A DNA stretch of 64,000 bases from Endomicrobiaceae bacterium. GTDB taxonomy: Bacteria > Elusimicrobiota > Endomicrobiia > Endomicrobiales > Endomicrobiaceae. Shown here in pieces: positions 2,088 through 61,168 of this stretch (the first letter of the stretch is position 1; each line of letters begins with the position of its first letter). A program made the translations under genes and the position numbers. Under the pieces are notes generated by a model. The model did not search any database, was not told the origin of the DNA, and saw nothing but the letters and a program-made list of their open reading frames with translations. The stretch spans positions 5,034 through 69,033 of the forward strand of contig JAQVBD010000003.1 of NCBI GenBank assembly GCA_028690485.1. The letters are read 5' to 3'.

Positions 2088-4864
<2,777 letters not shown>

Positions 4865-16728: not shown

Positions 16729-16730
16729 AA

Positions 16731-17762
16731 TTAATCTACTTTTATCTTTGATAACTTAATTGCAAAAAATATTAAAATTATTATAATTATTGTAAAAAGA
16801 ATGAGAGCTAAAGATTGAGATAAGTTGACTGTTAAATATGCAGCGATTCCTAAAATAGAGCATGCAATATAAACAAATATCAGGATTTGTTTCCTTGTAT
16901 ATCCTATTTTTTCTAATCTAAGCGGGAAATGATCTTTACTTCCAAGAAATGGATTCTTACCTTTTTTTACTCTTATAATACTTACAAATATAGTTTCATA
17001 TATTGGAACAGATAAAATTAATAAAGGAGCAAACATACCTATAGGATTTATTTTTGTATATGATGTTCCCATAGCGATTGTTGCAAGTATAAAACCAATA
17101 GATAAACTTCCGGTATCTCCCATAAATATTTTTTTAGTTTTTGATAAATTATAAGGCAAAAATCCCAAACAACCACCAACAAGGGCAATAGCACAAAAAT
17201 TCACATAAATCATTTCACTTGGTAAGGCTATAAAGAAAAAGAACAAAGAAGCGATTGTTGCAACACCACAAGATAAACCGTCCATAATATCTATAATATT
17301 AAATGCATTTGATAAACCTATTATCCATAATATACTTAATACAACAGATAAAGTATAATTTTCAATAAAATTTATTCTGATATCAAAAACTACTACTACA
17401 ACTATACAGGCTATTATCTGTATAAGAAACTTAAATTTAAAACCTAGCCCGCCTTTTTTTATATCATCAAATAATCCTAACAATAAAAGTAAAAAAGAAC
17501 CTATAAGCAAAGATCTGATATTATTTAGAGTACCCGTTGGAAAATGAGTAATACATCGTATAATAAGTAAACTTATTATCCAACCACTCCAGATAGCAAT
17601 CCCACCCAAATAAGGAGTACTTACTTTATGAGTTTTTACATCGGTAATAGGTCTATCATATATATTTAAGTTCATTGCAATATACCTAAATATAGGAGTC
17701 AATATAAGAGAAATTGCATAGGCTATTATAAAAGTAATAGAATACAAGAATTCATTTGTCAT
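16731..17762 (-). CDS. WecA/MraY-family undecaprenyl-phosphate sugar-1-phosphate transferase
   Basis: About 343 residues and ten or more membrane helices. Family signatures are THKVSTPYLGGIAIW, the DD motif in GLFDDIKKGGLGFKFKF, NAFNIIDIMDGLSCG, FMGDTGSLSIGF and GSKDHFPLRLEKIG. It transfers a sugar-1-phosphate to the polyprenyl carrier and so starts a glycan. It is not MraY itself by context. The ATG at 17762 is chosen because earlier ones lie inside the lipoate-ligase gene; a longer N-terminus from 17825 is possible. Confidence 0.85.
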   Translation of the reverse strand: MTNEFLYSITFIIAYAISLILTPIFRYIAMNLNIYDRPITDVKTHKVSTPYLGGIAIWSGWIISLLIIRCITHFPTGTLNNIRSLLIGSFLLLLLGLFDDIKKGGLGFKFKFLIQIIACIVVVVVFDIRINFIENYTLSVVLSILWIIGLSNAFNIIDIMDGLSCGVATIASLFFFFIALPSEMIYVNFCAIALVGGCLGFLPYNLSKTKKIFMGDTGSLSIGFILATIAMGTSYTKINPIGMFAPLLILSVPIYETIFVSIIRVKKGKNPFLGSKDHFPLRLEKIGYTRKQILIFVYIACSILGIAAYLTVNLSQSLALILFTIIIIILIFFAIKLSKIKVD

Positions 17763-17763
17763 T

Positions 17764-18438
17764 TTAAAATAATCCATTCCATTGCTCAGTATTATATTTT
17801 GAAGATGCAATAATACCTGCATCAAGAATTTCTTGTTTTAATAATTTATTAACTTCAATATCACAATTTAAGCATTTTGAAATATTTTTAAAGAATTTAC
17901 TAGCAAAAATATTTATTTGTTCATCTGTTAATTTTATATGTATAGAACCTTCAACTAATATTCTTTTTCCCCTTCTTCTTTGGCAAGACCCTACAAGCTT
18001 TTTCCCATTTAAAAAAACATCATCTTTATAAAAAGTTTTAATACAAGATATATCTTTATGAGATGTATCAATTTTATCTACATTATCACATATTATCTTT
18101 ATATCAAACAAAGCTTTTTTTATTTCATTATGAATTATTTTATAAGTTTGTTCTTGATCATAAATATAAGGCCAAATACTATCCGATACTATTAAAGAAT
18201 ACGATAAATCCATATCATGTAATACTGCCAATCCTGCTGTCATTCTTCTAATTATTGGATAATTATTTTCATTTTTGATATCTGATTTTTTTTGAAAATA
18301 TCCTATTGTATACGATGGTTCTGTCCACATATAAAATCTTAAAATAGGAACAAACTCGTCTTTGATAAAAAACATTTCATCTATTGACATATTAATTTGA
18401 CAATTCCTAGGTTTATCAATAACACATCTTAATTTCAT
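17764..18438 (-). CDS. Lipoate-protein ligase A / octanoyltransferase family protein
   Basis: About 224 residues. Family motifs are YTIGYFQKKSDI, the IIRRMTAGLAVLHDMDLSYS block (RR-x-T-G-G-x-A-V-x-H), and FLNGKKLVGSCQRRRGKRIL with GSIHI, the lysine-containing lipoyl-AMP region. It attaches lipoyl or octanoyl groups to carrier domains. LplA, LipM or LipL subtype cannot be settled by eye; a Cys in ISCIKTFYKDD could align with the LipM nucleophile. Start chosen at the second ATG (after GGAATACTAT), which matches the family N-terminus; the first ATG is at 18450. Confidence 0.8.
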   Translation of the reverse strand: MKLRCVIDKPRNCQINMSIDEMFFIKDEFVPILRFYMWTEPSYTIGYFQKKSDIKNENNYPIIRRMTAGLAVLHDMDLSYSLIVSDSIWPYIYDQEQTYKIIHNEIKKALFDIKIICDNVDKIDTSHKDISCIKTFYKDDVFLNGKKLVGSCQRRRGKRILVEGSIHIKLTDEQINIFASKFFKNISKCLNCDIEVNKLLKQEILDAGIIASSKYNTEQWNGLF

Positions 18439-40280: not shown

Positions 40281-41741
40281 GTGAAAATATTCAAACAAAT
40301 ACTTTTTTATATTGTTATTTTATTATCTTTAACAATAATAGCAGATTGTCAACTTTTTGCAACTGATGATTGGACATATTCATCCGATAAAATTTTTGAA
40401 ATTCCTGAAGGTCCGGATTTTCTAAGAATAGGGTATACTGATGATCAGGTTGTAACAATATCTAATGGTCCAACTTTTTTAAAAAGCATATCAAGAAATA
40501 TGAAATCTCCTGGATATTGGGTATCAAAAATAAAAAATCCAGATAAAACAATTTTATCTTATAATGAAATTTCTGTAATAAATAATAAAATTTTATCTAA
40601 CGGTATTTCTTTAAATGATGTAATTAATTACCCTGATTCTGTTCGTAAAATAAGTTTTCAAAAACAATCAAATCAGATATATCGAATTTTTACAGGAAGA
40701 AAATATTTAGATTCTTCATTAAAGATAATTCAACAAGATACCCTTAACAAAATAAAGAAGAATATTAAAATTAATTCTTCTGGAAAATATCTTAAAATTA
40801 AATTTGCATTAACAATAAAATATAGTGATGTCAGATTATTACCGACAGATATAACTTTTTTATATGATAAAGAAACTTTTGATATAGACAGATTGCAAGT
40901 CGCCGGATTAGATTTAGGAGAACCTTTAATAGTTTTAACTCAAACTAAAGATAAGAAGTGGACATATGTAATATCATCTATCTCTGAAGGATGGATAAAA
41001 ACACAAGATATTGCTTTCACAGACAGAGAAACTATTTCTAAATGGTATAATTCCAAAACTTTTATTGTTGTAATCAATACAAAAGCAGATATATTCCTTG
41101 ATAAAGAAAGAAGTAAGTATCATGATTATATTAGAATGTCAACAAAACTCCCATTAATAAAAACATTTAATTATCAAACAACTTGTATCAAAATTCCAAT
41201 GGCAAATAAAAAAGGAAATTTATTTTTTACTGAAGCATATATTAATACATCTGATATCAATATTGGTTTTTTAAAATATAACCAACGCAATGTCATTTAT
41301 CAAGCATTTAAACATTTAAATTCACCATACGGATGGGGTGGTTATTCTGGAGAACAAGATTGTTCAACATTTGTAAGGCAACTTTTTGGCTGTTTTGGTT
41401 TTATAATGCCAAGAAATTCATCTAATCAAAAAAAATGTGGTGTTAATCCTGTACAAATAAATTTAACTGATTCTGATTATATAAAAACTAATAAAATAGT
41501 AAAAAATGCTATAAGTGGTATATCTTTACTATATTTACCTGGACATATTATGATTTATATTGGAAGTGAGAATGGGACACCTTATGTTATACATTCAATT
41601 TGGGGTACAGAAAATTACAATAAAGATGGAAGAACTATTAATTTTATTAATAGAATAGTTGTATCAAATCTTTCAATAGGCGATGGAACTAAAAAAGGTT
41701 CTTTATTAAAAAGAATTGCACATTTAAATATAATCAAATAA
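40281..41741 (+). CDS. Secreted SH3 / NlpC-P60 peptidoglycan hydrolase
   Basis: 486 residues. A signal peptide (about 1-28) is followed by SH3-like segments (IKTQDIAFTDRETISKWY, about 250-340) and a C-terminal NlpC/P60 domain: SPYGWGGYSGEQDCSTFVRQ with catalytic Cys near 361, and GHIMIYIG with His near 421. It should cut peptide bonds in the cell wall. GTG start with GGAT before it. It is convergent with the giant gene; a partial hairpin (41730-41764) spans both stops. Confidence 0.88.
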   Translation: MKIFKQILFYIVILLSLTIIADCQLFATDDWTYSSDKIFEIPEGPDFLRIGYTDDQVVTISNGPTFLKSISRNMKSPGYWVSKIKNPDKTILSYNEISVINNKILSNGISLNDVINYPDSVRKISFQKQSNQIYRIFTGRKYLDSSLKIIQQDTLNKIKKNIKINSSGKYLKIKFALTIKYSDVRLLPTDITFLYDKETFDIDRLQVAGLDLGEPLIVLTQTKDKKWTYVISSISEGWIKTQDIAFTDRETISKWYNSKTFIVVINTKADIFLDKERSKYHDYIRMSTKLPLIKTFNYQTTCIKIPMANKKGNLFFTEAYINTSDINIGFLKYNQRNVIYQAFKHLNSPYGWGGYSGEQDCSTFVRQLFGCFGFIMPRNSSNQKKCGVNPVQINLTDSDYIKTNKIVKNAISGISLLYLPGHIMIYIGSENGTPYVIHSIWGTENYNKDGRTINFINRIVVSNLSIGDGTKKGSLLKRIAHLNIIK

Positions 41742-41760: not shown

Positions 41761-44700
41761 TTATGCAGCACTCAATATATTCTTTATAGTCAATACTGAT
41801 ACTTTTACTTCGTCCGTTATTTCTAATCTTCTAAAGTTATCCAGCAACAACACATTGAATTCTTTAAAATCAGATATTGCTTCCAATGTATTATTTACTT
41901 TAGTTATAAAATACTCATTCTCTCTTAATATTTTTCCAATATTCCCATTAACTTTAGATATTATTGAATCCAAATAATCTTTTACAGTGATTGTATCTGA
42001 ATCTATAAATTCATCATTTAACAAATCATTTATATTTTCACCTGATATTATTAATTGTATTGCTAAAATTAACAATGCTTTTTGATATTTGCCATTGGAT
42101 TCTTTTTCCATTTTTTCAAGATCTATATTAATATTTTTATCAGCCAAAATATTAATAATTTCTTTTCGTATGGAATTCATAGAAATACCTCTGATAAAAC
42201 CTAATGCTTCTGCATATTTTCCTTTACTTAACAAAAACTCTAAATAAGATTTTGAATCAACACTTAATTGAGTTGTTGAAATATTCTTTAATATTTCTGC
42301 TAGATTTTCATTATTTATTAAATCATTACTTATTAAACTAAACAACATTTTTACATTTGTAGTTGTATAATCAAATTTGCTGTTTAAACATGCATTATAC
42401 CCTTTAGCATATTGTTGTTTTAATGTACTGTTTTCATCAATTTGATTTATTAAATCATTTAATAACACACTACCATCATCTATCGTAATTGCTATGACAT
42501 TATCATCATTATAAATAGACTTTATCTCTTGTTGTGTAATATTTTCATCAATAAATATATCAACTTTACCAAAGTTAATATATTTTGACTGTTTATCAAC
42601 TATAGGTAAAATGCCATATGTATTCCATATATCTATATTTCTTTTAACAAATTTATCAAGAATATCTTCATTAAATTTGATAGCGATTCTCGTATCTACT
42701 CCTTTATTATTTATAAATTCTTGAAGTTTCTCTAATAGCCCATGTGCAATATTAATATCTGTTATATTATCCGCATCAATTCTGCTGCCATTAAGAATTA
42801 TATTAGTAGCGGCATTTGTCGTTTCTAATATAAATTTAAAACCTTGCCCTTGCAATAAAGTAATTTCAGCCGCATATTTTTGTGATTGCTCATTATTTAC
42901 AACAAATATTTTTATATTATTTACTTTATATTCCTGTTCGCATATATTTGATAAGTTGTCTAAATTTTCTTTTTTAGATAAATTTAAAACAACTTCTTTT
43001 AGAGGCATTGTAACAGAATATGTATATTCATTTTTCATTTCATTAATCACATCATAAGATGTTAATTTATTTGTTATTATTATTTGTTCTATACCATTGA
43101 AAATATCATTTTTAATACCATCTGAAAAAGCTTTATTTAATGATTGCTTTAAATTTTCAATATCAACACCAATTAAACCTTTCTTTGAATAAAAAACTAT
43201 TTCTTTTGTTTTACTATTCCAATATACTCTAACAACACTATTATTATATTGTGTCGTTACTCCTGAAATTTTAACACATTCTTTTAAATCTTTTTTATTT
43301 TCAACAATTTTTATACTAACGACATTAAATCCTTCTTCTCTCAACTTATTAGCTATAAGTCTATTGTTTACTAGTAATAATTTTCTTGAAATATTAAATT
43401 TGGTTTCTGAATTTGGTTTCTGAATTTCATTTAAAGAAATAATATTGACTGCTTTGTTTTTTATTTTAGAGATTGGATTTATACTTACTAAAATAAATTT
43501 ATTTAAATTTCTTATTTTTATTTGCTTAAGATTATAAATTATATGTAAACTCCATTCAGCAAACAATACAGATAATGGTATTAATAACGGCATGAGAATA
43601 GGAATAAAAACACTTGTAATTAAAGTAATACTAGCTGCAAATGTAATTGTAAATATTTTAATTCCTTTAATACTGTTTTTCATTTTATCAGTATATATGT
43701 CATGTCCCTCTATGAAGTCTTTTGTCCAAAATGAAAATGTTTCAATTATAACACCTAAAAATATTCCCTTAAAACTATACTTATCTATCCGCATTTTTTC
43801 TAATTTATGTATAGTTTTTACTGTTTGGAAAGTCTGTGAAATCTCAGAGTTTTCTTGATAAGATAAATTTAAATTTTCAATTGTATCTATAACTTTTAAA
43901 TTTTCCTCTAATTTGGAATTAATATCTTTGCTATTTGTTATAGATGTGGCATAAAGACCTTCAAATGTTTCCCCTTTTGGAAAATATATTTTGTGGGTTG
44001 TCAGATCGCTATATATATCAGACTGATCATACCCAACTAATTGTGTAGATGCTGCAAGTTTAAGTTTTCTTGTCGTTGTTTTTCCATTCAAGCTATTGAA
44101 AATACTTATAAAATACTCATTAGTTTGATTATCAAACCCAGATGTCATATATATTGGTTTATTTGAATCTCCGTTATTACCATAAATAAATGCATCTCTT
44201 AATGATTTAAATATAAAACGAAGCATTTTAGCTGGTTCTTCTTTATATCTATTATTTATATTATTAAGCTCGCAAAAATTAGAAATAAAGAAATTTGATA
44301 TTACAGAAAACATAGCATAGTTTTTATAATATATAATAAACAGTTCCTCGTCTGTAAGTTTGGATATATCACATCCAACTCCTATTGGATAAATTATTAA
44401 TGGTTTATTAAAAATGTCAGGATCTTTCATTTTCAGTGATTTAAAAGTTGAATTAACTTTTAATAAGTCATCAAAAAGCAATATAGAGAATGTTGATTGT
44501 TGTTGAATATCAATCTTTAACTTTTCTAATTTTTCACTTTGTTCTTTTTGTAAAAAAGCTTTTAAGTTATCTATTGATGGTACTGTGTATTTTATTAATG
44601 GATTCTTTTTATTAACAAAAGAAATTTTAATTTTATCATTATAAGATTGTTTTGCCCTAACTAATATTTTCCATTTGTTATGATATTTATCATTTTTCTT

Positions 44701-47700
44701 TTCAATATCAATAATATCATTTATATTCATACCTTTAATCTTTTGATCTAATCTATCAGAAATAGATTCTGTATTCCTGGATACTAAATGAACATCACCA
44801 TCTTTTTTTATATCTAGAAAAAAAGATTCATCTTCAATCTTTAAAAATATACCTATAATATCATCATACTCTGCAAAATTGCTTTCCCAAAAAATATCAG
44901 GAATGTCTAAAGCTTTTAATTTATCATTTAAAATATATTTATTATAAATTATGTGTACAATCCATTCTCCAGTTATTGCCATCATAACTGTTATAATTGC
45001 CGTTGCAAAAAAACCTGGTATTGAAGATACACCTAATACAGGCAATAATACAGGAGCTACCACTGTTCCACCAAAAAATCCACTTGCAATTGTAAATAAT
45101 TTTATTACATTGATTGCAACTTTCATTGATTTAGATTGTGTAGAATGTTGTTTTATAAAATCTTTTTTCCATAATGAAAATGTTTCAAAAACAACACCTA
45201 AAACTGTTCCCTTAAAACTATACTTATCTATTTGCATTTTTTCTAGTTTTTTTATTGTTTTTTTTGTTTTAAGAGTTTTTGCTTGATTATATAAAGCCAA
45301 ATCTTCTTGTTCAGATGTATTTATATTTATGACTTTGACATTTTGCTCTAATTTGAGATCAATATTTCCATCAATATTCAAATCTTCTTTAACAGAAGAA
45401 CCTCCTAATTTTATTATCTTATATTGTTCGTCAAATTTTTTACTATTTGTAAGATATGTTAAATACATATTGTTTTTTGTTTGACCAGCGAAAAAAGTTA
45501 AAGGAAGTTTTTCTATACTATATTCCATATTTTCAATACCTTTATGCATCCCTGAAATACCGGTAGCAACAGCTATTGCAAGAACTTGCTCACTTGTTTG
45601 TCCAAAAGATTCATTATAAACAGCTATAGAATATTCTTTAGTATTAGTGTCATATTTAGTAACTATATATATTGGTTTATTTGGATCTCCATTATTACCA
45701 TGAACCAAAGCATTTTTTAAAGATTCATATAGAAAATGGTATAAATCAATTGATAAATAAGCTCTTTCTTTTTGTTCCATATCCGATGCAATAATATTTA
45801 AAAAATTATCTATAAAATCATGCATAAATATAAAAAAAGCATTCTTATTATCAGTAAATAAACTATATAGCTGATGATTTGTTAATGAATTAAAATCTGC
45901 ACCAACTCCAATTGGATATAAAATCACTGTCTTATCTGTTAAATCAATTTGTTGTATTATTTCTTTAGTATTTTTCTTATCATCTCCAAACAATGCCCCT
46001 AGAAATATGATACTATAAGTCGTCGGTTTATCTAACATAATACCTAATGCATCTAATCCTCTTTTATACTCATTTGATAATAATATTTTTAATTTTTCTG
46101 ATTTTGGTAATGGTTGTTCAAAATATTTATTTTTATTGATCAGTGTTATTTTTATATCATCAAAATAAAGAGGTCCTTTTGTTATTATCACTTTCCATTT
46201 TTGATTTTCTTCATCATATTGTTTTTGAACTTTAATAAAATTATTTATATACATACCTTTAAAAACCTGATCCATTTTGTTAAAAAAAAGATCATTATTT
46301 TTAGACATTAATTTTAAGTCACCTTCTCTATGTATCTCTACATAGTAATAATCATCTTTTATTTTTAAAAAAATGCCTATAGAATCTCTGTTATTAAGAT
46401 ATTCACTTTTTAATAAAATTTGGTTTTCTATATTAGTTGAAGCATCTTCAATCTTTATATCATCTAATATTTGGTAATTGACATTATTTACATCTTCTTC
46501 TGCAATTGTATTATCTGCTATTTGTAACGTTAATGATATATTATTATCTTGTTCTTCATTTATAAATACTTTTAAAAAATTATAAGCAATATGTATAATC
46601 CATTCCCCAGTTATTGCAGTTAGCAAAGTTACAATTGCTGTCCCTGTTATTCCAGAAATGCTATACAAACCAACTCCTGACAACAATAATGGTGATATGC
46701 AAGTTAAACCAAATATAGCACTTAAGATTGTAAATGTTTTTATTATTAACAATGCGTATTTCATCATTTTTGATTTATTTTTATGTTGGTTTAAAAAATT
46801 ACTTTTCCACAATAAAAATGTTTCAAAAATGACACCTAAAACTATTCCTTTAAAACTATATCTATCTATCCCCATTTCTTCTAATTTCTGAACAGTTGAT
46901 TTCAATTGTAATATTGGTAAAGTATGAATAATATTTTTAGTATCTTCTTCCTGTGATAAACTTGATACAACAAAATTATGTTTTTCCTGAACTTTTATAA
47001 TACTTATTAAATCATCTATTATTTGTCTAACATCTTCAGCTATAGAATTGTATAACAAAAGTGTTTGTTTAAAAACTTTATCATTGTTAGCAATATTTTG
47101 CTTATATATTGCCTTTGTGACCAAATGTTTTAGTTTTTTTGCATCTGTAAGTGATTGTTGTAATGTATCAATATTAATATATTCCAAAAGATTTTTATTA
47201 ATTTTTTCTAATAAATTAGGTTCATTATCAAGATTATTACGGATCAAGGAAACTATTTGTTCATTAATATTACCTAAATCATCTGACTCTAGGAGTTTAG
47301 CTTTTTTTATATTTATTATAAGATTTGATATATTGTTAATTTGCTTATCGTCTAATATTCCTTTTATTTTTGCTGCATTTATTTCTGATAAACTATATCT
47401 TTCTTTTAAATTTATATTTGGTTCTAATTTTTGCAATATTTTTATTTGATCAATTGGCGACAGAGATGCAATTAAATTTGCTAATGTTTGAAATGATATA
47501 TTACTTTGTTCTTTTGCTATCTGATAATATGTTTTTTGTGCATATTTGATTCCACCTGTCACATTTGGAGTTATGACTATATATGACACATTCTTTTCTT
47601 CTAATATCTTTGAAACACTATCTGTATGAAATCCTCCAGTTATTACAACATCTACTCTTTTGACATTTTTTATATTATCTATAATATTTATTTCTTTTTT

Positions 47701-49041
47701 TGATTTCATATTTGATGTTTCTATTCCATCAAATATATTATTTATAAAATATTTATTTCTTTCTGTATTTATCACATAAAATTTATCTGCTTCTAGCAAA
47801 TACTGTTCTAACAAGGATAATACCCTATTATCTACATATTTATTCCATAATTCTCTATATTTGTCTATATTATTTTTATAATATTCATAATCTTCTGATG
47901 TTATTTTACTTGTTGTATAATCTTCCAAATATTTTTCAAAATTTGTTAAAAAAACTATCTCTCTTTGCACTTTTGTTTCTGAAAACCTTGTATTTATTTC
48001 ATTTATTAACTTATGTTCTTCTTTTATTAATTGTATTGGATTTATTTTTTGACTAAATTCTACATATTGAAGATACTTATTTAACTCTTTAAAATTTGTC
48101 TGTAAATCCAAATTATATTCTCTAGTTATTCTTATAAGATAGACATATAATTTATCTATCTTTGAAAAATTTTCTGTTGAATCCATTAACATCTTATATG
48201 CACTATATGGTATTCGTTCTTTTAACAACAATACTAATGTTTGTAATTCTTTTGTTATTTTTTTATATGATAATTTTTTCTGCTGTGACAACAACATAAT
48301 ATATGAATATGTATTGTTATATTTATGAATATCTATTCCTAACTTATCTACATGTTTTGATAATAATGCAAAGTATTTTTCAGGTGTGATTTTTCCATTT
48401 ATATAGTCATTAGAAAGTTGTTCTATTTTCAACTGTTTTCTATCGTAATATTTATTTTTTAACATTAATGTAGATTTTTTTATTTCTTCTAATATTTTAT
48501 TTATTTTTTCCTGATTCTCTAATATTTTCCCAAATCTTTTTAAATTATCTAAATATGCTTCTCTTTGTTCCAACCCTTTTATTATTTCTGTTTTACCACT
48601 GAGTACACTGTAATATTCTGCCCCTGTTAATCTTCCTGTTTCAATCATTTTTTCTATTACATTATTCTTTGAAGAAGAACCTATTGATTGTGTTATCCAC
48701 TTTGTACTTACTTTTCCATAAGCACCCTCTAAGTATATGTTGCTTATTTCATGTTCTTTATTAAACAACTCTATTATATTGCTAATATTTTTTTGTACTA
48801 TTGGATGGCAATGTAAATCTTGTATATTTATTACTAACCTGTCAGATGATGTAAAATGTGAAGATGTTATTTGTCCATATGAATATGGCAACATAAAATC
48901 ATTAAATATTTGTTTATATTGTTGTGTTGTTGTTATATTTGCTATTACTGATGACACAACTTGCCCATATACAAATGACAATAAAAAGCAATTAACAACG
49001 AAAATAGAGATTATTTTTTTTATTTTTTTTATCTGAAACAT
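41761..49041 (-). CDS. 2426-residue secreted repetitive protein with Tiki/TraB-like N-terminus
   Basis: A signal peptide (1-27) is followed by a domain (about 60-480) with INIQDLHCHP (71-80), IYLEGAYGK (102-110) and VVITGGFHTDS (near 467). The spacing and residues resemble the GxxH/E/GxxH pattern of Tiki/TraB/ChaN proteins. Then comes a module with two to three hydrophobic helices present three times (starting near 717, 1264 and 1744; KLEKMxIDKYSFKGxxLGV). After copies 1 and 2 come beta-rich segments and ALVHGNNGDPNKP (near 1109) or AFIYGNNGDSNKP (near 1617), which look like the N-box of GHKL ATPases. The last 550 residues match nothing I know. GGAGTG ribosome site. Function unknown. Confidence 0.85.
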   Translation of the reverse strand: MFQIKKIKKIISIFVVNCFLLSFVYGQVVSSVIANITTTQQYKQIFNDFMLPYSYGQITSSHFTSSDRLVINIQDLHCHPIVQKNISNIIELFNKEHEISNIYLEGAYGKVSTKWITQSIGSSSKNNVIEKMIETGRLTGAEYYSVLSGKTEIIKGLEQREAYLDNLKRFGKILENQEKINKILEEIKKSTLMLKNKYYDRKQLKIEQLSNDYINGKITPEKYFALLSKHVDKLGIDIHKYNNTYSYIMLLSQQKKLSYKKITKELQTLVLLLKERIPYSAYKMLMDSTENFSKIDKLYVYLIRITREYNLDLQTNFKELNKYLQYVEFSQKINPIQLIKEEHKLINEINTRFSETKVQREIVFLTNFEKYLEDYTTSKITSEDYEYYKNNIDKYRELWNKYVDNRVLSLLEQYLLEADKFYVINTERNKYFINNIFDGIETSNMKSKKEINIIDNIKNVKRVDVVITGGFHTDSVSKILEEKNVSYIVITPNVTGGIKYAQKTYYQIAKEQSNISFQTLANLIASLSPIDQIKILQKLEPNINLKERYSLSEINAAKIKGILDDKQINNISNLIINIKKAKLLESDDLGNINEQIVSLIRNNLDNEPNLLEKINKNLLEYINIDTLQQSLTDAKKLKHLVTKAIYKQNIANNDKVFKQTLLLYNSIAEDVRQIIDDLISIIKVQEKHNFVVSSLSQEEDTKNIIHTLPILQLKSTVQKLEEMGIDRYSFKGIVLGVIFETFLLWKSNFLNQHKNKSKMMKYALLIIKTFTILSAIFGLTCISPLLLSGVGLYSISGITGTAIVTLLTAITGEWIIHIAYNFLKVFINEEQDNNISLTLQIADNTIAEEDVNNVNYQILDDIKIEDASTNIENQILLKSEYLNNRDSIGIFLKIKDDYYYVEIHREGDLKLMSKNNDLFFNKMDQVFKGMYINNFIKVQKQYDEENQKWKVIITKGPLYFDDIKITLINKNKYFEQPLPKSEKLKILLSNEYKRGLDALGIMLDKPTTYSIIFLGALFGDDKKNTKEIIQQIDLTDKTVILYPIGVGADFNSLTNHQLYSLFTDNKNAFFIFMHDFIDNFLNIIASDMEQKERAYLSIDLYHFLYESLKNALVHGNNGDPNKPIYIVTKYDTNTKEYSIAVYNESFGQTSEQVLAIAVATGISGMHKGIENMEYSIEKLPLTFFAGQTKNNMYLTYLTNSKKFDEQYKIIKLGGSSVKEDLNIDGNIDLKLEQNVKVININTSEQEDLALYNQAKTLKTKKTIKKLEKMQIDKYSFKGTVLGVVFETFSLWKKDFIKQHSTQSKSMKVAINVIKLFTIASGFFGGTVVAPVLLPVLGVSSIPGFFATAIITVMMAITGEWIVHIIYNKYILNDKLKALDIPDIFWESNFAEYDDIIGIFLKIEDESFFLDIKKDGDVHLVSRNTESISDRLDQKIKGMNINDIIDIEKKNDKYHNKWKILVRAKQSYNDKIKISFVNKKNPLIKYTVPSIDNLKAFLQKEQSEKLEKLKIDIQQQSTFSILLFDDLLKVNSTFKSLKMKDPDIFNKPLIIYPIGVGCDISKLTDEELFIIYYKNYAMFSVISNFFISNFCELNNINNRYKEEPAKMLRFIFKSLRDAFIYGNNGDSNKPIYMTSGFDNQTNEYFISIFNSLNGKTTTRKLKLAASTQLVGYDQSDIYSDLTTHKIYFPKGETFEGLYATSITNSKDINSKLEENLKVIDTIENLNLSYQENSEISQTFQTVKTIHKLEKMRIDKYSFKGIFLGVIIETFSFWTKDFIEGHDIYTDKMKNSIKGIKIFTITFAASITLITSVFIPILMPLLIPLSVLFAEWSLHIIYNLKQIKIRNLNKFILVSINPISKIKNKAVNIISLNEIQKPNSETKFNISRKLLLVNNRLIANKLREEGFNVVSIKIVENKKDLKECVKISGVTTQYNNSVVRVYWNSKTKEIVFYSKKGLIGVDIENLKQSLNKAFSDGIKNDIFNGIEQIIITNKLTSYDVINEMKNEYTYSVTMPLKEVVLNLSKKENLDNLSNICEQEYKVNNIKIFVVNNEQSQKYAAEITLLQGQGFKFILETTNAATNIILNGSRIDADNITDINIAHGLLEKLQEFINNKGVDTRIAIKFNEDILDKFVKRNIDIWNTYGILPIVDKQSKYINFGKVDIFIDENITQQEIKSIYNDDNVIAITIDDGSVLLNDLINQIDENSTLKQQYAKGYNACLNSKFDYTTTNVKMLFSLISNDLINNENLAEILKNISTTQLSVDSKSYLEFLLSKGKYAEALGFIRGISMNSIRKEIINILADKNINIDLEKMEKESNGKYQKALLILAIQLIISGENINDLLNDEFIDSDTITVKDYLDSIISKVNGNIGKILRENEYFITKVNNTLEAISDFKEFNVLLLDNFRRLEITDEVKVSVLTIKNILSAA
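43528..43810 (-). repeat. Giant protein membrane module, copy 3
   Basis: Encodes KLEKMRIDKYSFKGIFLGV through AEWSLHIIYNL. About 50 bp at its start are nearly identical at DNA level to copies 1 and 2. Confidence 0.75.
44937..45250 (-). repeat. Giant protein membrane module, copy 2
   Basis: Encodes KLEKMQIDKYSFKGTVLGV through GEWIVHIIYNKYI, with two long hydrophobic helices between. Confidence 0.75.
46570..46890 (-). repeat. Giant protein membrane module, copy 1
   Basis: Encodes KLEEMGIDRYSFKGIVLGV through GEWIIHIAYNF. It is the least similar in its polar start but has the same helix layout. Confidence 0.75.
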
Positions 49042-49577
49042 TTTTCACTCCAAAATAAAAAAGCCTGTACTTTTCTACAACAAAGTACAAGCTTTTTTGT
49101 ATATGATATATTTTTTATAGAAACAGATCTTGGTAAAATATTAAACAATAACCTAAATAATAACACGAAAACAATACATCGCCATAGCGGAATTTTTAAT
49201 GGTGAATTTACTAATACATTTTTATACACATTAGAAATAATTCCATCATTGATTTCTATAATGTGTTTATTTACTGTTTTATAATCATTTAAAAAAGAAT
49301 AAATTGATATTACAGAAATATCATAAAATGATGTTTCTGTTGTGTTTTCATTATGTTTTTTATTACTATTTTGATGATTAGACATCATTGATGAAATAAT
49401 ATCTGTAGGCATGTTTACAACTATAAAAAACTTACTAATAAATGAATCGGATTGGATATTATATAATGAGATATCTATATTCTTAAAAGTACACATAAAT
49501 GCATTTAAAAAAACACTTATAGCACATATAAAAACACATAAAAAAATATATTTCTTTAATATTAATCTTTTTTTCAT
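49029..49577 (-). CDS. Small two-helix membrane protein before the giant gene
   Basis: About 182 residues. One helix near the N-terminus (about 10-30) and one near 135-150, with a Ser/Asn/His-rich extracytoplasmic region between. No family recognised. Its end overlaps the giant gene by 13 nt, so they are co-expressed if transcription passes the hairpin at 49060-49095. The ATG at 49577 lies 8 nt after TATAAT with no SD; an ATG at 49583 would be too close to the -10 box. Confidence 0.65.
   Translation of the reverse strand: MKKRLILKKYIFLCVFICAISVFLNAFMCTFKNIDISLYNIQSDSFISKFFIVVNMPTDIISSMMSNHQNSNKKHNENTTETSFYDISVISIYSFLNDYKTVNKHIIEINDGIISNVYKNVLVNSPLKIPLWRCIVFVLLFRLLFNILPRSVSIKNISYTKKLVLCCRKVQAFLFWSEKCFR
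49052..49095 (-). terminator. Terminator-like hairpin inside the end of the small gene
   Basis: Arms 49060-49073 and 49082-49095 form a 14-bp stem with one G-T pair and an 8-nt loop. The minus strand then runs GGCTTTTTTATTTT. It lies within the last codons of the small membrane protein gene and about 20 bp before the giant ATG. Confidence 0.7.
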
Positions 49578-49585
49578 ATACATAC

Positions 49586-55397: not shown

Positions 55398-56729
55398 TTA
55401 TTTATTTTTTCTACTTTTTAATAATTCAATCATACCATAATCTTTATTTCTTTCTGCATAATCCATTGCAGTAAAACCCCTATTATCATTTGAATGCAAT
55501 CTTGCACCATTATCAAGTAGCAATTTTGCAATATCAAAATAACCTTTATAACTTGCTAATATTAAAGGGGTCATGCCATTTATATCTTTTGTATTAAGTC
55601 TCGCACCTTTTTCTAATAAAAATCTAATGATGTCTATATTGTTAATATCTACAGCTGTATTTAATAATCTTGGAACATTATCTTGTTTTTGATTTAAAAT
55701 TGCTCCGTTTTTAAATAATAGTTTTACCATTTCTATATTACCTTTTCTTACAGCAATAATTATTGGAGAAATTCCATTATTATCAACAATATTTATATTT
55801 GCTTTATGAGCTAGTAACAATTTAACAATTTCTGTATTTGATTTATATAAGGCATACATCAATGGTGTAATTCCATTGACATCATGAACATTAATATCTG
55901 CTCCGCTATTAAAAGCTAATTCTACCAAATCAATATTATTGGAAGCACAAGCTGAAATTAAAGGATTTATACCATTATCATCAGCCATACTAATATCTGC
56001 ATTTCTTGATATTAAAAAAGCTGCCATATCATAATCACCATTATCAAAAGCAATTAATAAAGGTGTTTTTCCCAAAACACCTTTTTCATTAACATCAGAA
56101 CCATAAGCAATAAATCTTTCTGTAAGCCTTATGTCTGATGTAACAACTGCTTCCCCTAAAGTTCCCGGTATTGAACCTACTTCATTGAAAAACTTTACAA
56201 TATTACTATGTCCTGCTTTCATAGCTATTGATGAAGCTGTTAACCCATTATCTGTTTTTGTGTTTACATTCACATCATATTTAACCATGTACTTAATAAT
56301 TTTAATCATCCCTTTCTCTGAAGCCATCATAAGAGCTGTAGTTCCATTATTTAATTTTTTATCAAAATCCACACCATAATCTATTAACAATTCAGCTGTA
56401 GATTCCATATCTTTATTTATAGCAAGCATTAACGAATTCATTCCTCTAGAATAAGATTCATTAACGTTAGCTCCTCTTTTTATTAGCAAATTTGCTCCAT
56501 CCTTAAAACCCATATTAATTGCAAGTAATAAAACAGCATTCCCATTTGAATCTTTTGAATTTGGACTAACCCCATTATCTAAACATTTAACCATTGTTTT
56601 TAAATCAGATCTTACAATTGCGTCCAACAAAGTATCTGAATTCAAAACAGTATTTGCTGAATACAAATAAGTATGTATGCAAAAAACACTTATTAAACAA
56701 ATATAAACTAATGACTTTATTTTTTTCAT
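55398..56729 (-). CDS. Secreted ankyrin repeat protein
   Basis: 443 residues. A signal peptide (about 1-25, ending near YLYSANT) is followed by about 12 ankyrin repeats (pattern NGxTPLMxAxxxGxxxIVKLLLxxGAxIN) to the C-terminus. Ankyrin arrays bind proteins. The ATG overlaps the stop of the TPR gene as TAATG, so translation is coupled. A longer frame starting at 56765 would lack a signal peptide at its N-terminus. Secretion is inferred from the signal only. Confidence 0.88.
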   Translation of the reverse strand: MKKIKSLVYICLISVFCIHTYLYSANTVLNSDTLLDAIVRSDLKTMVKCLDNGVSPNSKDSNGNAVLLLAINMGFKDGANLLIKRGANVNESYSRGMNSLMLAINKDMESTAELLIDYGVDFDKKLNNGTTALMMASEKGMIKIIKYMVKYDVNVNTKTDNGLTASSIAMKAGHSNIVKFFNEVGSIPGTLGEAVVTSDIRLTERFIAYGSDVNEKGVLGKTPLLIAFDNGDYDMAAFLISRNADISMADDNGINPLISACASNNIDLVELAFNSGADINVHDVNGITPLMYALYKSNTEIVKLLLAHKANINIVDNNGISPIIIAVRKGNIEMVKLLFKNGAILNQKQDNVPRLLNTAVDINNIDIIRFLLEKGARLNTKDINGMTPLILASYKGYFDIAKLLLDNGARLHSNDNRGFTAMDYAERNKDYGMIELLKSRKNK

Positions 56730-59700
56730 TATAATGTCGTTAATTGTGAAATTTTTGAATTGCATTCTTTTGAAATCTTTATATCTAATTTTGCAGCTTT
56801 TTGATAATTTTCTATAGCTAAATCATTTTGATTATTACTTTCACATAACTGAGCATATCCAAAATATGCAAGAGAATTTTTTGGATTTATATCTATTGAT
56901 ATTTTGTAATAATGTTGAGACTGTTTAAAATTATTTTTCATTTTATATATATCTGCAATTTTGCAATTTGCTAATGATGATTTTGGAGATAATTTTATAA
57001 CTTTGAACAAATCATCCAATGCTAAATCAAATTCTTTTATTTCATAATATGCTTCGGCTCTAGAAATATAAATCTGTATATCATTAGAATTTTGTTCTAT
57101 TGCTCTTGTAAAATCATCTATTGCTTCATCATATTTTTGCTTTTTTAAGTTAATATTGCCTCTATTAAAAAAAAGTATACTGGTTTTAACATCTATTTGC
57201 GATGAAGTTGCTTGGACTATAACTTGTGATTTGTCTTGTTCGATTAAATCATCGTTTTGTCTTTCTTCTATCATTTTTGATCTATTAAAATCTAGTTCTG
57301 CTTCTTTGTTATTACCTAATTTTTTATACAATAAACCTCTATTGTAATAATATTTTGCATTATTTTTATCAAGAATTATTGCATTAGTATAATCTTTTAT
57401 AGCTATAGTATTTTTTTCATTTTTGGCATAGTATTCAGCTTTTTCGGCAAATAAACTATGTTTCTTAGAGTTAATTTTAACAGCTTTTTCATAATCTTGT
57501 GATGCTTTTAAAAAATTATTTGATTTTGTATAAATTTTTGCCCTTAACCAAAATAGCTCATAGTCATTTGATTCTAGTTCTATTGCTTTGTTTACATTAT
57601 ATAAAGCGACAGCAAAATTAGATATGTAAAAATATGATAATGCATTTGAATAATAAATTAATTTATTATTCAAACCTTTACTAATTGATTTTGTTAAATA
57701 AACAGTCGCATTATCATAATCTTTTGTTTTAAAATAACTCATACCTAAATAATAATTTATTTCTTTTTCTTCTTTTTTATCATCGTATATCTCAGTTAAT
57801 ACCTCAATACTCTTTCTATATTTTTCTAAATGAAAATATATTTGTGATAATAAATATTTAATATCATTACCGGCATAAAAATCTAAAAGAAATACTATAT
57901 CTTCATACGCTTCTTCAAACTTTGATTGTGTTATATAATAATTGATTCTTGATATATACGCTTCTTTATATTCAGGTTCATATTCTATTGCTTCATTTAA
58001 ATTCTTCAAATAGTTTTTGATATCTCCATTCATCTTATATAACAAAGATCTTTTATAATATAACGTTGCATTATCTGGTTCTAAAAAAATAGCCTTATCC
58101 AATGAAATAATGGCATCCTTATATTTTGTTAATAATTTAAATGATTCTGATTTATTAACAAAAATTTCCACATCTCCTACTTTATGATATTTAATTGCCA
58201 TATCATAATCTTTTATAGCTTCTTTAAAATTTAATTGTCTAAAATATAAATTAGCTCTTTTTTTATAGTTTAACCAATCACTGATATTTTCTTTTACAGC
58301 TTTATTTGCCTCTTGTAAATCTAAGAATTCTTCATCAGTTTTTTTAACATCTTCTTGTTCCTGTATTATTGGCTGTGATTGTTCTTGCTCTACTTTTTTT
58401 GATACTTCTTCCAAATTATTACTCTCTGGTAATTTATCGTTAGAATCATCGATTTGACCGATATTTGTTGTATCTTCTTCTATTACTGTAGACTGTTCTT
58501 TTTCTTCTGTTGGTATTTCTTTTATTTTATCATTTTCAGATAAGTTGTCTTGAGAATTATCTATTTGACCAATATTTGGGATATCTTCTTCTATTATTGA
58601 AGACTGGTGTTCTTTTTCTTCGGTTAATACTTCTTCTAATTTTGTATCTTCTTGAAAATTATCATTATTATTAATTTTACTATTATCTTGGTTGTTTTTT
58701 TGTTCATCTATCATTGAAAGAGATTGTTCTTGCTCTGCTTTCTTTGATACTTCTTCTAAATTATTACTTTCAGATATGTTAATATTTTGGCTTTCTTTTT
58801 CTATTATTGGCGACTCAAATTGATCTTTATTTTCTTCTATTGATATTTCTTCTGAATTAGGCTTTTCTTGAAAATCATATTCTATATCTATATCATTTTT
58901 CTGTTCTATTTCATCATTTTTAACTAATTCTTTATTTCCAACATTTTCAACTCCATCATCATGTATAATTGTTTTTTTAGACTTCTTTTTTTCATTATGA
59001 AAATATTTTTTTGTTTCCAAGAGCTCAATACCCAAATCTAATGTTTTATTTTCACACAAAAGTTTAAGTGCTGTATCATAATCTTTAATAGCGTCAATAA
59101 TATTACCTCTGTTTCTATTAATTATAGCCTTATAAAAATATGCATTTACAAATTTATCATCAACTCCTAATAAATAAGAAATATCCTCTAGTGCCTCTTC
59201 ATAACTTTTCATTTTAATACATAATTTAATTCTTTTAATATATAAATTTAAATTTTGTGGTTCTACTGAAATCATTTCGGTATAATCTGCATATGCTTTT
59301 GTTAATTTATCAACCACAATATAAGAAGATGCTCTCATTTCTAAGCAATCCATATCTTTAGGGTTTTCTTGTAAATATATTGATGCAAATTTTATAGTAT
59401 CTTCATAATTATATGTCAAAAAATTAATTTTAGCTTTTAAGAATAAAACATCCTTATTATCTGTTGATAATTCTAATATTTTATCAAGATCTTGATCTGC
59501 TTTTTCATATTGTTTTAATAAAATCAATATTTTTACTTTATCAATATATGTTTTAATATCTGTATTATCTCTTTCTAAAACTGCATTATAATCAATAAGT
59601 GCCTCATTGTACATTTCCAACTTACTAAAAACAAAAGCTTTTCTTTTGAGAACTTCGAGATTACAATATCCACCAGAAACTGCATCTTGCAAATTTAATA

Positions 59701-61168
59701 ATGCTGAATCATAATTTTTTAATTTTAAATTACACAATCCTAAATAATAAGAACTTTCATATAAATTATATTTATCATTTACACATTTTTCAAAATCATT
59801 TAATGCTGAATCATACTTTGCAAGTTTTACATATATCATTCCTCTGTAATAATTGGCTTCAATAAAATCTTCTTTTTTATCTAATACTAAAGAAAAATCA
59901 TTAATAGCAGATTCATAATTATTCAAATTAAAGTAACATAAACCCCTTGAATACAGTAACTCTGGTATATCAAAAACTAAAGATAATGCCTTATTAAAAT
60001 ATGTCTCTGCATTTGAATATTCATTTTTTTCCAGATGACAAACTCCACAGACATACAAAAGTTCAGGATTTTTATTAATATCAAATTTAACTGCCATTTT
60101 AAAATTATCTAAAGCATCATCATAATTCTCTGTTATAAGATTTATATATCCCATCATAGAGTAACAAATATGATTATCAGGCATAAAATCAATAACTTGG
60201 CGAATATCTTCATTTGCTTTTTTAAAATCATCTTTCAATAAAGACATATTAGCTCTTGCTATATATGGCGGAACAAAAGAGTAATCTATATCTATTGCTT
60301 CAGAATAAAGTTTTAATGCTTTATCATCAAAACCTTGTTCTCTATACAGATTTGCCAAATTATAATATGCATAGCTATCTTCTGGAATAATTTCAATAGC
60401 ATATTTAAAATCTTTCTCAGCCAAATCTTCTTCTAATTTTTTTCTATATATTATCCCTCTATTATTTAAAGCGAATGAATCGGTAGGTTGCAATTTTAAT
60501 GCTTCATTAAAATCTGCAATAGCTTTATCTAAATCATCTATGCTGCTATATGTTATTGCTCTATTACAGAATGCATAATCATCATTAGGGTTTAATTCAA
60601 TTGCTTTTGTAAAATCATCGATTGCTTTTATATATTTGAATAAACATCTAAATGCCATTGCTCTGCCATAAAAAGCAGATTCATTATTCGCATTTAATTC
60701 TATTGCTTTATCAAAATATAAAATAGCCTGTTCAAAATTATGTTGTATTCTATTGATGTTGCCTAAACTATTATAAACCGTTGAATTCTGAGGATTAAGT
60801 TTTATAGCATTTTCAAAATCTTCTTGAGCAAGATCAAAGTTCTTAACAGCAATATAAGTTTCTCCTCTGGCAATAAAAGCAAAAGTAAAATTTTTATCTA
60901 ATTCTATTGCTTTCGTAAAATCAGTTATTGCTAACTTATATAATGATTTTTTATGATATATAATTCCCCTGTTGTAGTATGCAGATGCATCTGAAGGATT
61001 ATAAAGAATATTAGAAGTATATTGTTCTATTAATTTATCAAATTCTTTTTGTTGTAATTTAGGAATGACTTTATGGAAGTTTATATAAAATTTTTCAGGA
61101 TGAAATTCTATTTCATCAATTGTTTTTTCTATAAAAATTTTAATATGTTTTTTGTAATCTAGCCCCAT
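56729..61168 (-). CDS. 1479-residue TPR repeat protein with acidic linker
   Basis: Two TPR superhelices: residues about 35-735 (about 20 repeats) and about 965-1475 (about 14 repeats). They are joined by a Glu/Asn/Ser-rich linker of about 210 residues that itself repeats NNLEEVSKK-x-EQEQS and NIGQID-x-S-x-D. There is no signal peptide, so it is presumably cytoplasmic. Repeats have canonical W/Y-G-A-P positions (ALDDFTKAIELNPN-type). GGGGAATAA ribosome site. It is translationally coupled to the ankyrin gene, so both may serve the same process. No enzymatic domain is seen. Confidence 0.9.
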   Translation of the reverse strand: MGLDYKKHIKIFIEKTIDEIEFHPEKFYINFHKVIPKLQQKEFDKLIEQYTSNILYNPSDASAYYNRGIIYHKKSLYKLAITDFTKAIELDKNFTFAFIARGETYIAVKNFDLAQEDFENAIKLNPQNSTVYNSLGNINRIQHNFEQAILYFDKAIELNANNESAFYGRAMAFRCLFKYIKAIDDFTKAIELNPNDDYAFCNRAITYSSIDDLDKAIADFNEALKLQPTDSFALNNRGIIYRKKLEEDLAEKDFKYAIEIIPEDSYAYYNLANLYREQGFDDKALKLYSEAIDIDYSFVPPYIARANMSLLKDDFKKANEDIRQVIDFMPDNHICYSMMGYINLITENYDDALDNFKMAVKFDINKNPELLYVCGVCHLEKNEYSNAETYFNKALSLVFDIPELLYSRGLCYFNLNNYESAINDFSLVLDKKEDFIEANYYRGMIYVKLAKYDSALNDFEKCVNDKYNLYESSYYLGLCNLKLKNYDSALLNLQDAVSGGYCNLEVLKRKAFVFSKLEMYNEALIDYNAVLERDNTDIKTYIDKVKILILLKQYEKADQDLDKILELSTDNKDVLFLKAKINFLTYNYEDTIKFASIYLQENPKDMDCLEMRASSYIVVDKLTKAYADYTEMISVEPQNLNLYIKRIKLCIKMKSYEEALEDISYLLGVDDKFVNAYFYKAIINRNRGNIIDAIKDYDTALKLLCENKTLDLGIELLETKKYFHNEKKKSKKTIIHDDGVENVGNKELVKNDEIEQKNDIDIEYDFQEKPNSEEISIEENKDQFESPIIEKESQNINISESNNLEEVSKKAEQEQSLSMIDEQKNNQDNSKINNNDNFQEDTKLEEVLTEEKEHQSSIIEEDIPNIGQIDNSQDNLSENDKIKEIPTEEKEQSTVIEEDTTNIGQIDDSNDKLPESNNLEEVSKKVEQEQSQPIIQEQEDVKKTDEEFLDLQEANKAVKENISDWLNYKKRANLYFRQLNFKEAIKDYDMAIKYHKVGDVEIFVNKSESFKLLTKYKDAIISLDKAIFLEPDNATLYYKRSLLYKMNGDIKNYLKNLNEAIEYEPEYKEAYISRINYYITQSKFEEAYEDIVFLLDFYAGNDIKYLLSQIYFHLEKYRKSIEVLTEIYDDKKEEKEINYYLGMSYFKTKDYDNATVYLTKSISKGLNNKLIYYSNALSYFYISNFAVALYNVNKAIELESNDYELFWLRAKIYTKSNNFLKASQDYEKAVKINSKKHSLFAEKAEYYAKNEKNTIAIKDYTNAIILDKNNAKYYYNRGLLYKKLGNNKEAELDFNRSKMIEERQNDDLIEQDKSQVIVQATSSQIDVKTSILFFNRGNINLKKQKYDEAIDDFTRAIEQNSNDIQIYISRAEAYYEIKEFDLALDDLFKVIKLSPKSSLANCKIADIYKMKNNFKQSQHYYKISIDINPKNSLAYFGYAQLCESNNQNDLAIENYQKAAKLDIKISKECNSKISQLTTL

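Follow-up and report, generated by a model that had tools for sequence, protein, structure and literature searches.

A family of modular, probably membrane-associated giants with constant ends and a variable middle, specific to Elusimicrobiota and chiefly found in Endomicrobia

Introduction

The literature records numerous uncharacterised giant proteins in Elusimicrobiota (PMC11573180) and describes those of Omnitrophota as poorly understood (PMC10066038). The main genome paper on Endomicrobia (PMC11257099) contains none of the terms for giant proteins for which we searched it. Among described enzymes, those of the Tiki superfamily offer the closest point of comparison for the N-terminal part of the protein considered here. 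They use a set of two histidines and two glutamates, which in VvRRSP comprises E3900-x-H3902, E3930 and H4030, and the published superfamily member Bcr135 has the corresponding pair H85/E113 (PMC6254334).

Here we analyse a giant gene in a stretch of 64,000 nucleotides, referred to as the window, from an uncultured, gut-type member of the Endomicrobia (Elusimicrobiota) with a genome of 1.63 Mb that is 96% complete in 122 contigs. A preliminary description, made from the window alone, had proposed a single secreted protein that combines a Tiki/TraB-like domain, a triplicated membrane module and GHKL-like segments. Our comparison with paralogues and with other genomes places this protein in a large family, upholds much of the proposed architecture and changes the reading of several of its parts.

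Results

The features of the locus are collected in Table 1. The gene is real and is one uninterrupted frame, as had been claimed, and its product contains every peptide quoted from it: INIQDLHCHP at residues 72-81, LEGAYGK at 104-110, TGGFHTDS at 468-475, and the segment peptides ALVHGNNGDPNKP and AFIYGNNGDSNKP. Because the same genome holds at least 12 paralogues and other genomes hold many relatives, the long frame is neither a product of chance nor an assembly quirk. Direct searches of Pfam, NCBIfam and PDB sequences with the window protein returned nothing significant, and a promoter scan gave no signal above chance. Convergent with the giant gene lies a plus-strand gene for a peptidoglycan hydrolase with SH3 and NlpC/P60 domains (window 40281-41741), and a TPR-repeat protein of 1479 aa is encoded on the minus strand at 56729-61168.

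Table 1. Features of the giant gene and its partner, in window coordinates (res., residues of the giant protein)
Feature	Position	Strand	Basis
Giant protein gene	41761..49041	(-)	2426 aa, one uninterrupted frame
N-terminal hydrophobic segment (signal-peptide/anchor-like), res. 1-30	48952..49041	(-)	KD peak 2.03 at res. 10-28
N-domain, Tiki/Ere/ChaN superfamily (well supported), res. 31-540	47422..48951	(-)	70-sequence alignment; AlphaFold2; bridging homologues at PF04187 cut-off
QDLH motif (D75, H77), first acid-x-His of predicted active site	48811..48822	(-)	D, L, H invariant in 70 sequences
E105, 28 residues after H77	48727..48729	(-)	invariant in 70 sequences; spacing as in Bcr135 and VvRRSP
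GGFH motif (G469, G470, H472)	47626..47637	(-)	G, G, H invariant in 70 sequences
Hydrophobic module 1, res. 727-825	46567..46863	(-)	hydropathy and self-comparison
Beta-rich segment 1, res. 830-1032	45946..46554	(-)	self-alignment and segment alignment
RsbW-like GHKL segment 1, res. 1033-1223, with N-box ESLKNALVHGN and without G1 box	45373..45945	(-)	SpoIIAB-only PDB profile matches; PF13581
Hydrophobic module 2, res. 1270-1372	44926..45234	(-)	hydropathy and self-comparison
Beta-rich segment 2, res. 1373-1541	44419..44925	(-)	self-alignment and segment alignment
RsbW-like GHKL segment 2, res. 1542-1726, more degenerate	43864..44418	(-)	sequence profile
Hydrophobic module 3, res. 1735-1850	43492..43839	(-)	53.5% aa identity to module 2
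C-terminal domain, res. 1855-2426	41764..43479	(-)	conservation across giants from 7 or more genera
Conserved tail SVLTIKNILSAA-COOH	41764..41799	(-)	consensus on 27/29 complete members; DNA read
Small two-TM partner of 184 aa, one TM near each terminus, the C-terminal one before a K/R-rich end	49029..49583	(-)	upstream-ORF family

A search of its own genome with the window protein gave 13 further matches, 12 of which cover the N-terminal ~500 residues at 25-52% identity, the length of their frames ranging from 483 to 4446 aa. The thirteenth, a piece at a contig end, may be the continuation of another match. In the wider scan of public genomes 292 relatives were found, and the 80 that were kept all belong to Elusimicrobiota, mostly to Endomicrobiaceae and Endomicrobiales. 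Across the phylum, 44 of the 150 genomes surveyed were positive, including all seven listed order-mates outside the family Endomicrobiaceae, and a positive genome usually held about ten or more copies, in frames of up to 11,814 aa. Homologues occur throughout the order. What had been treated as a single gene belongs to a large, lineage-wide family with constant ends and a variable middle, an arrangement that no gene on its own could reveal; we read the family as specific to Elusimicrobiota, chiefly Endomicrobia, and as made up of modular, membrane-associated giants. In the genus whose genomes are smallest (0.5-1.4 Mb), probably that of the flagellate endosymbionts described in PMC11257099, genomes were mostly negative or had few copies, and the giants therefore appear to be a trait of the larger-genome lineages. 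An idea that they are effectors of endosymbiosis was dropped, since the family is missing or sparse in reduced genomes. Elsewhere in the window genome we noted a cobalamin riboswitch (L031:11838-12044, minus strand). At L029:12077-13513, a secreted-protein ORF adjoining a giant contains a masked (N) stretch that is probably a repeat.

A hydrophobic segment lies upstream of the DLH motif in 75 of the 76 members that are complete at the 5' end, and is followed by the N-domain, of ~500 aa. In the alignment of 70 sequences D75, L76, H77, Q83, E105, E142, N425, R428, G469, G470, H472 and P492 (window numbering) are invariant. Among these, D75-x-H77, E105 and GGFH472 reproduce the E-x-H, E, GxxH order of the 2-His/2-acid set, with a conservative E-to-D change at the first acid, and both the residue order and the His-to-Glu spacing of 28 (H77/E105) equal those of Bcr135 (H85/E113) and VvRRSP (H3902/E3930). 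An AlphaFold2 model of the domain (pLDDT 89, pTM 0.85) has the element order beta(DLH)-alpha-beta(E)-helices-beta(GGFH)-alpha-beta, as expected for the superfamily, together with a large helical insertion. When this model was compared with the PDB by Foldseek, no match reached E<=0.001; the top probability, 0.30, belonged to the erythromycin esterase EreC (6xcs), and the Ere-like structure 3b55 was also listed. More distant, bridging homologues in the phylum strengthen the assignment: a giant with a frame of 4034 aa (L150) matches the N-domain profile at 3.6e-42 and, in the same stretch, the Pfam model ChaN (PF04187) at 27.8 bits against a cut-off of 27.7, and a 369-aa protein (L151) scores 32.4 bits with ChaN and gives a weak match to the N-domain profile.

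Other comparisons were negative. The window protein matched none of the Pfam models of the superfamily (PF04187, PF05139, PF01963), the N-domain profile matched nothing in the PDB at E<=10, and hhalign of the N-domain with ChaN gave only a helical match of 43-46 columns, which was set aside. Across the phylum the Pfam Ere model had no matches and the TraB/Tiki model had one below threshold. The D in place of E at the first acid and the missing first G of GxxH also weigh against the assignment. Since the direct ChaN-to-N-domain profile comparison fails, we regard membership of the Tiki/Ere/ChaN superfamily as well supported, not proved. The Tiki/TraB-like assignment of the preliminary description therefore holds at the level of the superfamily, on the strength of the residue set, the ChaN-bridging giants and the Ere esterase with the top Foldseek probability, and falls short of a direct Pfam, PDB-sequence or profile-profile match for the window protein itself. 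In related genomes from another taxonomic family of Elusimicrobiota, G067 and G055 among them, we also observed clusters of ChaN-like proteins of 370-520 aa, several to a contig, which are possible relatives of the N-domain.

The triplicated hydrophobic module is confirmed, with starts near residues 727, 1270 and 1750, as are the homologous beta-rich and N-box segments that follow two of its three copies. Unit 1 (residues 711-1250) and unit 2 (1257-1733) are 40% identical over 470 residues, with an alignment score of 830 compared with at most 84 in 200 shuffles. The pairs of hydrophobic modules share 41-58% identity in protein and 62-69% in DNA, and the units are therefore old, diverged duplicates rather than recent ones. 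The earlier view that the copies are similar at DNA level, and hence recent or kept by conversion, was overstated.

The proposed GHKL-like character of the segments survives in a restricted form. They contain the N-box E..xNA..H, in which E and N are at least 90% conserved and A is invariant, and a G2-like GLSGxHxG, and in the alignment xVYN stands in place of the missing G1 box DxGxG. Comparison of a profile of ten such segments with the PDB returned four sequences at E<=10, all of them SpoIIAB anti-sigma F factors (E 0.7), and four of the ten members touched HATPase_c_2 (PF13581), the best E being 0.022, short of the cut-off. The signal is thus weak but specific to the SpoIIAB/RsbW type, with no profile match above cut-off and a degenerate look. 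The segments share the N-box E..KNA..HGN and the G2-like motif with the RsbW/SpoIIAB anti-sigma kinases, from which they differ in the lost G1 box and in being embedded in a membrane-associated giant. Their motifs suggest that they are GHKL-derived rather than functional GHKL ATPases, and because the G1 box is lost they would be expected to bind rather than to catalyse.

In paralogues and relatives the corresponding middle is occupied by PGK, PGI, PGM, adenylate kinase (ADK), PPDK, methyltransferase, MFS or SecA-like domains. By Pfam, the giant L025 carries adenylate kinase, two PGM/PMM copies, PGK and PGI; G136 has PGK, PGI, ADK and a methyltransferase, G170 has NUDIX, PGM, PGI and PGK, and a giant of G058 has PGK and a methyltransferase. 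Other members contain a metallophosphatase, a cytidine deaminase or an MFS domain, further cargo includes PPDK, ABC1 kinase-like, M48, LMW phosphatase and SecA-like domains, and some members have GA, TPR or LysM modules. The two PGM/PMM copies of L025 (G000:C97; residues ~1790-2455 and 2455-3200) are identical and in tandem within one giant frame, which may be due to duplication in the very recent past or else to assembly. L031 (5907-9062) and L033 (3354-6386) consist of the N-domain, a complete MFS transporter and the family's C-terminal tail, and L033 has a stop codon near its start. In L035 and in L055 and its relatives the N-domain is followed by a SecA DEAD-like domain and then by about eight TM helices, with GA modules also present in L055; this SecA DEAD-like subfamily is conserved in many Endomicrobiaceae.

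PGK lies inside giant frames of six genomes from five genera, with the N-domain on the PGK-bearing ORF itself in G000, G136, G166 and G058; the other two ORFs are cut by contig ends. The catalytic motifs of the fused PGK are kept in five of the six genomes and the PGK of G058 is eroded, and the fused PGI has lost its catalytic Glu region (GEPGTNGQH to GTAGTDAQH). Values of dN/dS, rough because dS is large, were 0.09 for PGK, 0.13 for PGI, 0.18 for PGM and 0.06-0.15 for other giant pairs, which points to purifying selection on the cargo modules. The window genome has stand-alone PGK and PGI beside the fused copies, and most genomes with PGK giants likewise have a stand-alone PGK, which rules out the idea that the fused enzymes are the cell's only glycolysis.

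The losses among these domains bear on the possibility that the giants are surface or structural proteins, in which enzyme domains would serve as dead building blocks for adhesion or for a coat, as has been proposed for giants of Omnitrophota (PMC10066038). The altered PGI, the eroded PGK of G058, the GHKL segments without a G1 box and the GA, TPR or LysM modules are all consistent with this notion. Most fused PGKs, however, have an intact active site and evolve under strong constraint, and MFS and SecA-like cargo is not adhesive; we think such a surface or structural role unlikely.

At the other end of the protein, every full match to the C-terminal domain that was examined ends on the last residue of its own ORF. 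The last 12 residues follow the consensus x-[LVI]-x-x-[IVTY]-[RK]-x-[IM]-L-[SA]-A-A-COOH; among 29 complete members, L occupies position -4 in 27, R or K position -7 in 24 and A position -1 in 26. A relaxed form of the pattern fits 27 of the 29, compared with 1 of 328 other complete ORFs, and the strict form fits 1 of 500 other ORFs. The single background ORF, L040|14668-17955, is found immediately downstream of a truncated giant, whose detached C-terminus it most probably represents. The locus (L040:10001-17955) appears to hold a giant split by a frameshift or stop, with an N-terminal ORF of 1494 aa that ends in an HD domain and a second ORF that ends in the family tail (SILGAA). Within the window genome, 13 ends fall into nine clusters without detectable similarity outside the tail, L032 and L033 varying most.

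The tail is also visible in DNA. An exact pattern for [IM]L[SA]AA-stop, outside which the window gene itself falls by virtue of its Ser codon AGT, has six matches in the whole window genome and none in a reversed control; two are known giants and four are ORFs that enter from contig starts and resemble giant C-termini. In 11 N-domain-positive genomes there were 69 matches against 16 in the control, and in nine N-domain-negative genomes 4 against 11. Tails ending in AA, as this one does, are familiar from ssrA tags; among known readers of tails of this kind, the Prc/CtpA and Clp proteases come closest. A structure model of residues 1250-2426 was of low confidence (pLDDT 59, pTM 0.35), and its Foldseek matches, scattered TIM barrels, were set aside; likewise, phmmer hinted at a relation between the C-terminal domain and muconate cycloisomerase (E 0.012), on which we do not rely.

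The small ORF that overlaps the start of the window giant by 13 bases belongs to a family that accounts for 46 of the 70 ORFs directly upstream of relatives' giants, mostly at -40 to +100 bases. The remaining 24 do not match the partner profile, which counts against a two-gene model. Over 80 loci the profile found no ORF away from a giant, except for one ORF overlapping the start of its giant and another forming part of a giant. In L086 the partner is fused in frame to its giant, and in L091 the frame is open through both.

That many members run off contig ends, that L025 contains an identical tandem pair and that paralogue C73 has a stop near its start might suggest that the fused frames stem from misassembly or from decaying pseudogenes. 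The same architectures nevertheless recur in independent assemblies and genera, in very long frames, with dN/dS far below 1 and with tail and partner conserved. For the family as a whole this artefactual origin is already refuted and has a negligible probability, although single members could be broken.

Discussion

At the level of sequence, the family combines a constant N-domain, a variable middle of hydrophobic modules and captured domains, a constant tail and a two-gene cassette. The explanation of the whole that we favour, and to which we give about even credence, is a family of giants with a partner, an outward-facing N-domain hydrolase, membrane-fixed cargo and a tail read by a common factor. 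The N-terminal signal or anchor would direct the N-domain to the outer surface of the inner membrane. There the domain may act as a hydrolase that cuts an ester or peptide bond, most likely as an endopeptidase in the manner of Tiki and RRSP, its target being either its own polyprotein or a substrate in the envelope. Between cargo modules, the hydrophobic modules would anchor the chain in the membrane. A single factor, most likely a tail-specific protease of the Prc/CtpA or Clp type or else a sorting enzyme, would read the [RK]x[IM]L[SA]AA tail and thereby cut, retain or clear every member of the family. The cargo of the window protein, its two RsbW-like GHKL modules, probably binds a ligand or partner rather than turning over ATP.

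Topology is the weak point of this explanation, and hydropathy and charge gave contradictory answers among members. ATP-using cargo makes little sense on the outer face, and in MFS-fused members a very basic K/R-rich linker after the N-domain, together with canonical MFS loop charges, would place the end of the N-domain or the linker in the cytoplasm. The main rival is therefore a membrane-tethered cytoplasmic mega-enzyme, or metabolon, in which only the N-domain is outside, the cargo is cytoplasmic and the tail serves as an ssrA-like degron by which the level of these very large proteins is regulated. Its appeal is that much of the cargo (PGK, ADK, PGM, PPDK, deaminase) uses ATP or nucleotides and is cytoplasmic in kind, that most fused PGKs keep their catalytic motifs under strong constraint, that the loop charges of MFS-fused members are of the cytoplasmic type, that the tail ends in AA, and that in 37 of 82 members GGFH is followed, at a distance of 140-280 residues, by a clear hydrophobic segment. 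The flanking charges of that segment, however, do not settle its direction and do not favour an out-to-in crossing, L025 has no strong TM between N-domain and ADK, and the stand-alone PGK and PGI of the same genome mean that the fused copies are not needed for glycolysis. We consider this arrangement somewhat unlikely.

Returning to the favoured explanation, a broader form of it would describe a protein-carrier system, in which Endomicrobia place housekeeping enzymes and other modules on membrane giants equipped with a Tiki-superfamily hydrolase, a partner and a new tail signal read by a common factor. We advance this only tentatively, as rather less than an even prospect. Intact, constrained glycolytic enzymes behind an export-type N-terminus, beside stand-alone copies, raise the question of where these reactions run, and for whom. 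Furthermore, the 12-residue tail, which nine unrelated C-terminal regions in a single genome have in common, makes a strong candidate for a new signal that directs sorting or processing.

Comparison with known systems

Elusimicrobiota rank with the bacterial phyla that have the most huge proteins. The open literature covered here does not say what these proteins are, and the present analysis defines one large family among them by parts that can be tested. In the open literature that we searched no description of the giant family, its tail or its partner was found, and a set of giants with shared front end, fixed tail, partner gene and swapped middle appears to be undescribed. The reported giants of Omnitrophota, Elusimicrobiota and related phyla (PMC10066038, PMC11573180) likewise have thousands of residues and several membrane segments; those reports offer no family definition, whereas here N-domain, tail and partner define one family.

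With the Tiki/TraB/Ere/ChaN superfamily the N-domain shares the acid-x-His motif, the Glu 28 residues on, the subsequent GxxH and, in its predicted structure, the beta-alpha core order, and with Tiki and ChaN a putative extracytoplasmic N-terminal targeting. It departs from them in having D for E in the first motif and QDLH instead of GxxH, in an insertion of ~280 helical residues and in its fusion to giant variable proteins.

Constant ends around a variable middle are also the layout of MARTX toxins, whose effector RRSP is a Tiki-superfamily enzyme (PMC6254334), and one may imagine a MARTX- or polymorphic-toxin-like vehicle whose ends carry the middle into competitors or protist hosts. The lineage is gut- and protist-associated, and the hydrophobic hairpins could insert into target membranes. 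Against such delivery, Pfam scans of ~30 members found no RTX repeats, no autoprocessing cysteine protease and no recognised toxin domain; the cargo consists of housekeeping enzymes rather than anything toxin-like, the Tiki-like domain is constant at the N-terminus, and the family is absent or sparse in reduced genomes resembling those of flagellate endosymbionts. We hold a toxin-like function to be improbable.

Like PEP-CTERM, MYXO-CTERM and T9SS CTD tags, the tail is a short C-terminal signature on otherwise unrelated proteins of one genome. Unlike them, its ~12 residues, ending in ILSAA-COOH, have neither a beta-sandwich nor the TM helix and basic cluster that follow the signature in PEP-CTERM and MYXO-CTERM, and the tail is found only on N-domain giants. 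With the ssrA tag and the tails of Prc/Tsp (CtpA) substrates it shares a short apolar C-terminus ending in AA; in contrast to these, it is genetically encoded, conserves R/K at -7 and L at -4, and marks one family only.
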